A stretch of 64,000 bases of DNA, taken from assembly GCA_030065575.1 (NCBI GenBank), contig JASJDZ010000009.1, positions 1 through 64,000 on the forward strand, written 5' to 3'. The stretch comes from Acidimicrobiia bacterium (GTDB lineage Bacteria > Actinomycetota > Acidimicrobiia > Spongiisociales > UBA5794). This document shows positions 22,915-23,731 of the stretch, piece by piece (the stretch's first letter is position 1; every line of letters begins with the position of its first letter). Position numbers and translations under genes: made by a program. The notes below the pieces were generated by a model. The model was given only the letters and a program-made list of their open reading frames with translations, did not search any database and was not told the DNA's origin.

Positions 22915-23404
22915 ATCCTTGCTTCTGGTCGAGCACCTCCCCGAGGGGCGGGCTCTTCCAGCCGCTGTTGCAGATGGCGTTAGCCAACTGCTGGCTCGTC
23001 CGGATGCCCGGGGTGTTATCCCCGCACGACCGGTCGTGCCTTCTCCTTGGCGAGTGCCGAGGCCCCCGCCTTGGGGAAACCCGTGGGACCATTGTCTCCG
23101 ATGGCTTGCCGCTCGAACCCCGGCCCAAAGGGCCTTGATCCGGCAGCCTTCTCGGTGTCCGGCCCCGACCGTTTCCAGCCGATACCTTCTGCCCGAGGAA
23201 ACCCTCAGATCCGCCGATCTCACCGGCGGACGGGACCGAAGCCCCATCCGTCTCCGCTGCGTGCCGGCCACCTGTCCGGAGCGGGCCGTGACCCGCGCCT
23301 TCCCGGCGGTCTGCCTCGCTTGGAGACTCCGGTTGGTCCGAAGACCACCCGGTCCGATCGGCCCGGAGGCCGCTCGGTTGACCGGCCCGAGGGCCAGTCG
23401 ATGC

Positions 23405-23439
23405 GGAGGGCGAACCCTCCGGCGGAGGGCGAACCCTCC
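23405..23439 (-). repeat. Tandem identical UUCG hairpins inside candidate RNA 2
   Basis: ggagggcgaaccctcc twice (23405-23420, 23424-23439), period 19; minus strand GGAGGG-UUCG-CCCUCC. Confidence 0.85.
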
Positions 23440-23466
23440 CCGGCCGAGCCCGGAGGCTCTTCCGGT

Positions 23467-23499
23467 GTCGAGACCGAAATCCCAGTCGAGACCGAAATC
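23467..23499 (-). repeat. 15-nt direct repeat inside candidate RNA 2
   Basis: gtcgagaccgaaatc at 23467-23481 and 23485-23499 (period 18), each forming a minus-strand UUCG hairpin. Confidence 0.85.
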
Positions 23500-23731
23500 T
23501 CGGCTGAAGCTCAGCCTCGGGCGCAGAACCGTCGTCCTGCCGGTCAGAAGAGCCGAAACTCCCCAGACCGTCTGCGTCCGTTGGGGCCGAAACCCCTCGG
23601 GTCGCTGCGGGGTCGTGATCCCGCTGCGGAATGTATCCATCCCGATGATCCCGGTGCCGGTGCGGTCCAGTTTCCCGGGTCCGCCCCTTCCGAGACCGGC
23701 TCCTCCATGGTTGGAGCCCTCGAGGAAGGAA

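Follow-up and report, generated by a model that had tools for sequence, protein, structure and literature searches.

Several described classes of bacterial RNA offer points of comparison for the locus reported here. 6S RNA and Ms1 are stable, abundant RNAs that sequester RNA polymerase. In other actinobacteria this role falls to Ms1, which sequence searches detect with difficulty and whose conserved flanking genes encode a HAD hydrolase, CpaE and an oxidoreductase (PMC9130861). CsrB and RsmY act as sponges that titrate the protein CsrA through many GGA motifs, and ROOL, GOLLD and OLE are large RNAs for which assembly into RNA-only particles can be considered. At the level of single hairpins, GNRA loops are common docking elements and UUCG loops dock rarely; the two have stability in common, but not shape. 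Only a small number of bacterial non-coding RNAs are known to belong to a replication regulon.

The window analysed here is a stretch of 64,000 nucleotides from the genome of an Acidimicrobiia bacterium, and its minus strand carries an array of UUCG and UCCG hairpins. Genome comparison indicates that this array is part of a predicted non-coding RNA, and that the RNA represents a new family carried by nearly all genomes of one Acidimicrobiia order. The normal state of the family, as read from the sequences, is a tandem pair of paralogues, with a separate promoter and a separate conserved terminator hairpin for each. The array lies in the longer of the window's two RNAs, RNA 2, whose features are as follows:

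22867..23725, minus strand: RNA 2 (RNA A of the tandem pair), a predicted multi-hairpin non-coding RNA of about 855 nt, its start placed from the promoter
23227..23596, minus strand: array of eight UUCG and two UCCG hairpins, 10 observed against 0.12 expected and 0 antisense
23403..23439, minus strand: two identical tandem UUCG hairpins with a 19-nt unit (Tandem Repeats Finder, 100% match)
23227..23250, minus strand: hairpin alignable across the genus (genus alignment and pair counts)
22867..22920, minus strand: conserved 3' terminator hairpin, CCCCGAGAGGG...CUCCCUCGGGGUUU (terminator covariance model R1, 66.1 bits)

An earlier sequence-only reading of this DNA had listed ten such hairpins, eight with UUCG and two with UCCG loops, and all of them were recovered at their minus-strand places with stems of at least 5 bp. 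Its suggested comparison with shuffled and opposite-strand sequence also came out in its favour: for 23200-23600, 500 dinucleotide shuffles gave a mean of 0.12 UUCG/UCCG hairpins and a maximum of 2, and the opposite strand gave none. For RNA 2, the shuffle expectation is 0.1-0.4 hairpins against the ten present, and the density on the minus strand in the remainder of the window is 0.2 per kb. The canonical hyperstable form is not seen in every hairpin, as the closing pairs vary between C(UUCG)G, U(UUCG)G and G(UUCG)C.

The second RNA of the pair lies further along the same strand:

17318..17592, minus strand: RNA 1 (RNA B of the pair), a predicted RNA of about 270 nt with GNRA hairpins, its start placed from the promoter
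17318..17371, minus strand: conserved 3' terminator hairpin (model R1, 67.5 bits)

On the minus strand at 17320-17620, there are four GNRA hairpins with stems of at least 4 bp against 0.33 expected, a count reached by one of 500 shuffles, and no UUCG or UCCG hairpin with a stem of at least 4 bp. The proposed division of loop types, UUCG in RNA 2 and GCAA in RNA 1, thus applies to this species but does not extend to the genus: four of the five aligned RNA 1 orthologues have an additional UUCG hairpin at the position where the window has CUCG. The GNRA hairpins are kept in all five of these same-genus orthologues, one of which (G017) has an inserted GAAA hairpin.

Homologues of both RNAs were retrieved in a search of 50 genomes of the same family. 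Those of RNA 1, with 76-84% identity, were found in all six other genomes of the genus that were searched, and the RNAalifold consensus contains 11 doubly changed pairs. RNA 2 homologues are present in six of seven genus genomes searched, the window's own included; in the window's genome, the RNA 1 terminator is the only match to RNA 2 apart from RNA 2 itself. The terminator covariance model has 16 pairs, with a level of covariation that none of 500 shuffles reached. It was positive in 30 of the 31 genomes of the order and in some more distant members of the class, and gave nothing convincing in the remainder of the phylum. The genomes compared are mostly metagenome-assembled.

Two protein-coding genes serve as syntenic markers:

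23899..24717, plus strand: PD-(D/E)XK (RecB-like) nuclease gene, divergent (Pfam PDDEXK_1, 8e-34), syntenic in homologous loci
16577..17209, minus strand: bPH_2-SHOCT gene downstream of RNA 1 (Pfam bPH_2, 5e-16; SHOCT, 2e-8), syntenic

The usual order is the divergent PDDEXK_1 nuclease gene, RNA A, RNA B and the bPH_2-SHOCT gene, with about 5 kb intervening between RNA A and RNA B in the window's genus. When an alignment of the adjacent nuclease was used as the query, the scan retrieved 80 named loci. Their titles, where given at class level or lower, read Acidimicrobiia or Acidimicrobiaceae/Acidimicrobiales, and the remainder read 'Actinomycetota', 'Actinomycetes', 'bacterium' or 'Acidobacteria' (apparently mislabelled). 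Other families of the class have more divergent relatives, one of them adjoining the nuclease and bPH_2 genes. A plasmid search was negative. Downstream of the nuclease gene, at 24645-30763 in the window, lie genes for two large UvrD-helicase/PDDEXK_1 proteins, an AdnAB- or AddAB-like pair.

Neither the window nor 35 homologous loci matched Rfam 15 at the curated gathering score, and the ROOL, GOLLD and OLE families gave no match in the same set. Matches at a low threshold (mir-5132, AgrB and ncS037) were far under the cut-off or on the wrong strand and were judged to be chance. In the open-access papers searched, we found neither the RNA family nor the dnaA-associated CGCGAAA box, which is taken up below.

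A reading of the locus as protein-coding was rejected, with alignment gap lengths modulo 3 (1/2/0) of 155/73/42 and stops in every frame in five homologues. A function at the DNA level, such as a cruciform, was likewise set aside: stems would serve both strands, but the loop types and the folding energy are biased to one.

The hairpin anatomy of the family is described from 106 RNAs, collected by their paired promoter box, CGCGAAA-N13/14-CGCGAAA. UUCG hairpins number 239 in this set against 7.3 expected (9 antisense), GCAA hairpins 119 against 3.1 (0 antisense) and GAAA hairpins 105 against 4.5 (1 antisense), an excess of 23- to 38-fold that is confined to the RNA strand. Two or more hairpins of the UNCG or GNRA type are present in all but one of the 106 RNAs, and predicted four-base hairpin loops total 742 against 199 in shuffles. 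The minimum free energy of the sense strand is below that of all six of its own shuffles in 101 of 104 family RNAs, compared with only 31 for the antisense strand. The body of the RNA, as predicted from these sequences, is a string of short hairpins with stable tetraloops (UUCG, GCAA, GAAA and GAGA) and purine-rich linkers between them.

Minimal members of about 135 nt consist of three hairpins and the terminator, and larger members, such as RNA 2, have many further hairpins inserted. The comparison indicates that hairpins are gained and lost as units, their number varying by insertion and tandem duplication (a 39-nt hairpin unit is present in four copies in L090), and that loop types are interchangeable at homologous positions. 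At H1 and H2 of the minimal four-hairpin RNAs, for example, some species have a GNRA loop where others have UUCG. Because hairpin number varies, a genus-wide global alignment of the array fails, and the covariation we report comes from three sources, namely RNA 1, the terminator and the RNA 2 hairpin that can be aligned (23227..23250), in all of which compensatory stem changes are seen. In the last, the stem covaries and the loop is UUCG or UCCG, or non-UNCG in one species.

These data bear out the earlier description of a repeated stem-loop module in RNA, which is strand-specific, far above chance, kept across genera, gained and lost by the unit and marked by compensatory changes. Of the conservation to be looked for in homologues, the stems are preserved through covariation and the loop type is not, UUCG and GNRA being exchanged. 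The module had been proposed to be architectural or to bind protein multivalently; the architectural half is favoured, and binding through the UUCG loops is disfavoured by the same exchange. What the reading had overlooked is the order-wide RNA family and a promoter element common to dnaA and nrdJ.

In its stronger version, the proposal makes the array a UUCG-specific multivalent protein-binding platform. UUCG is indeed the commonest loop in the 106 RNAs, but UUCG and GNRA interchange at homologous hairpins and some family RNAs have predominantly GNRA loops, and we regard this version as the least probable of the explanations considered. The swap makes the loops look like structural caps, and UUCG would then be a stable cap rather than a binding site. 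The docking habit of GNRA loops, together with the length (about 850 nt) and high degree of structure of RNA 2 and the potential of two paralogues to co-assemble, would suit an RNA-only assembly like ROOL, GOLLD or OLE, in which the hairpins make quaternary contacts within a large RNA particle. UUCG loops are poor candidates for such docking, however, and sizes that range across species from about 135 to about 900 nt are unlike a fixed cage; we think this explanation decidedly unlikely.

Multivalent binding through the linkers is possible, as GGA is enriched 2.6-fold and GGAA 3.8-fold in unpaired segments of the predicted folds, an enrichment that partly reflects purine-rich composition. The GGA enrichment, the multi-hairpin layout and the presence of a CsrA gene in the window species recall a sponge that titrates CsrA in the manner of CsrB and RsmY. 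Against this, GGA is absent from the hairpin loops (which are UUCG or GNRA), and CsrA was found in only 7 of 25 genomes, or 4 of 18 good ones, compared with 31 of 31 for the paired promoter box and 30 of 31 order genomes for the RNA terminator. With CsrA missing from most of the genomes that carry the RNAs, it is not the conserved partner, and a CsrA sponge as the conserved function, mostly refuted, ranks in our estimate barely above the UUCG-specific platform.

The RNAs share the promoter CGCGAAA-N13/14-CGCGAAA-N18-TTGAC-N17/18-TANNNT, represented in the window by these elements:

23780..23806, minus strand: RNA 2 paired box, a CGCGAAA-N13-CGCGAAA direct repeat (expected by chance 0.00 in the window)
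23756..23761, minus strand: RNA 2 -35 TTGACG (family N18 spacing after the second CGCGAAA)
23732..23737, minus strand: RNA 2 -10 TACGTT (family spacing of 17 or 18 from the -35)
17647..17673, minus strand: RNA 1 paired box, a CGCGAAA-N13-CGCGAAA direct repeat
17623..17628, minus strand: RNA 1 -35 TTGACC (sequence and family consensus)
17599..17604, minus strand: RNA 1 -10 TACCTT (sequence and family consensus)

The distance between the second CGCGAAA and the -35 is fixed at N18 in 75 of the 106 RNAs, and the -35 to -10 spacing is 17 or 18 in 77. The paired box was found in all 31 relatives, at 1-6 per genome, and a reversed control pattern was found once. Between the nuclease gene and RNA 2 (23830-23880), the window also has a palindrome of the ACACNNGTGT type, and next to it the DnaA-box-like sequence TTATCCACA; in L193 and L194, the region upstream of nrdJ contains a similar palindrome, TTACACNNGTGTAA.

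Strong core promoters suggest abundance, as would be needed for a stable RNA that sequesters RNA polymerase and fills the 6S/Ms1 role in the order. No 6S RNA was detected in 25 relatives (RF00013 covariance model, 0 of 25 genomes at E 0.001 and none at these loci), although the model finds well-known controls, and Ms1, used in other actinobacteria, is itself elusive in sequence searches. The predicted fold is one of at least four separate serial hairpins, however, rather than one rod interrupted by a central bubble, and the nuclease and bPH_2-SHOCT flanks are unlike the main Ms1 neighbours (PMC9130861, with a 'PH' phrase in its Table 3), none of whose conserved genes lies beside the RNAs. We consider this role unlikely, though less so than the alternatives above. 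Membership of 6S itself was rejected, there being no model match and no single long hairpin with a large central bubble predicted for RNA 1 or the minimal members.

The box also occurs away from the RNAs. Among the non-RNA paired-box sites, on the same strand as the gene in each case, 21 precede dnaA, at a distance of about 330-400 bp, and 15 precede nrdJ, at about 275-300 bp (one at 457). One genome has single sites upstream of dnaB and of ftsK. Sites of these kinds are found at L229:960-987, L231:1013-1039, L191, L193 and other loci. The identities of these genes were checked with Pfam. The nrdJ promoters have the same N18-TTG spacing as the RNA promoters, whereas the dnaA sites are without a -35 box at N18, and dnaA regulation may therefore differ. 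In seven outgroup genomes (L289-L295, about 1.1 Mb, low-GC), the sole box found is upstream of dnaA, which makes the dnaA box appear older than the RNA pair. Several paired boxes are without an assigned target gene. In L195, L196 and L215, the CGCGAAA pair is just upstream of a third kind of gene, for an uncharacterised protein of at most 282 aa with no Pfam match; in L233 and L236, it is upstream of an RcpC/CpaB-like SAF-domain gene that is followed by a second, unassigned ORF.

A promoter box common to such distant genes sits poorly with a cis-acting leader or attenuator of the bPH_2-SHOCT gene. That gene usually follows RNA B directly, with both on one strand, but both RNAs end in a strong terminator, and RNA A, with a terminator of its own, is about 5 kb from the gene in the window's genus; we rate a leader as highly improbable, if marginally less so than a CsrA sponge. 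Given the element shared with dnaA and nrdJ, the RNAs appear to belong to a putative regulon for replication and the cell cycle in Acidimicrobiia, one that the paired boxes would mark.

Our best overall explanation, which we consider evenly balanced between right and wrong, is that the RNAs are a replication-coregulated pair acting in trans as a scaffold or sponge. A putative factor on the CGCGAAA direct repeat would switch them on together with replication initiation and dNTP synthesis. In trans, they would then serve as scaffolds or sponges that are rigid and resist nucleases, offering many copies of purine-rich (GGA-type) linkers, or hairpin bases, to a protein partner, with the tetraloops as structural caps and array length setting the valency. 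If the loops are interchangeable caps, any recognition should reside in the linkers or stem bases, and this, with valency set by array length, makes a trans-acting scaffold or sponge the most likely form. As a guess at mechanism, we favour such a multivalent RNP scaffold or sponge, at about an even chance. More tentatively, and with the chances clearly against it, the pair might be a core, order-wide part of the regulon, with one box-reading factor driving dnaA, nrdJ and both RNAs, the RNAs helping to control replication or the cell cycle (they might, for instance, buffer a protein of replication or of dNTP synthesis) and hairpin number being tuned by duplication.

With this family, a large actinobacterial order whose members are mostly uncultured would gain an RNA pair that is near-universal and previously undescribed, and a very specific promoter element would tie the pair to dnaA and ribonucleotide reductase. 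With hairpin caps apparently selected by stability class, not sequence, and arrays that grow by unit duplication, the family provides a natural test case for the evolution of modular RNA scaffolds.

Compared with known systems, the RNAs resemble 6S RNA (RF00013) and Ms1 as stand-alone structured RNAs, here in an order without detectable 6S, but they form a hairpin string instead of one bulged rod, occur as a tandem pair and have other neighbours. Like ROOL, GOLLD and OLE, they are large, stand-alone and predicted to be elaborately structured; unlike them, they have no Rfam match, are chromosomal with a housekeeping-like distribution, vary highly in length and are built from repeated simple hairpins. 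The CsrB/RsmY sponges share the many serial short hairpins of variable number, the GGA-rich unpaired segments and the regulated promoter, whereas in our RNAs, again with no Rfam match, GGA lies outside the loops, the loops are UUCG or GNRA and CsrA is mostly absent. Finally, the 3' hairpin followed by a U-tract is that of an intrinsic terminator, but here its sequence is conserved across many genera and, within its own genome, is similar only to that of the other RNA.
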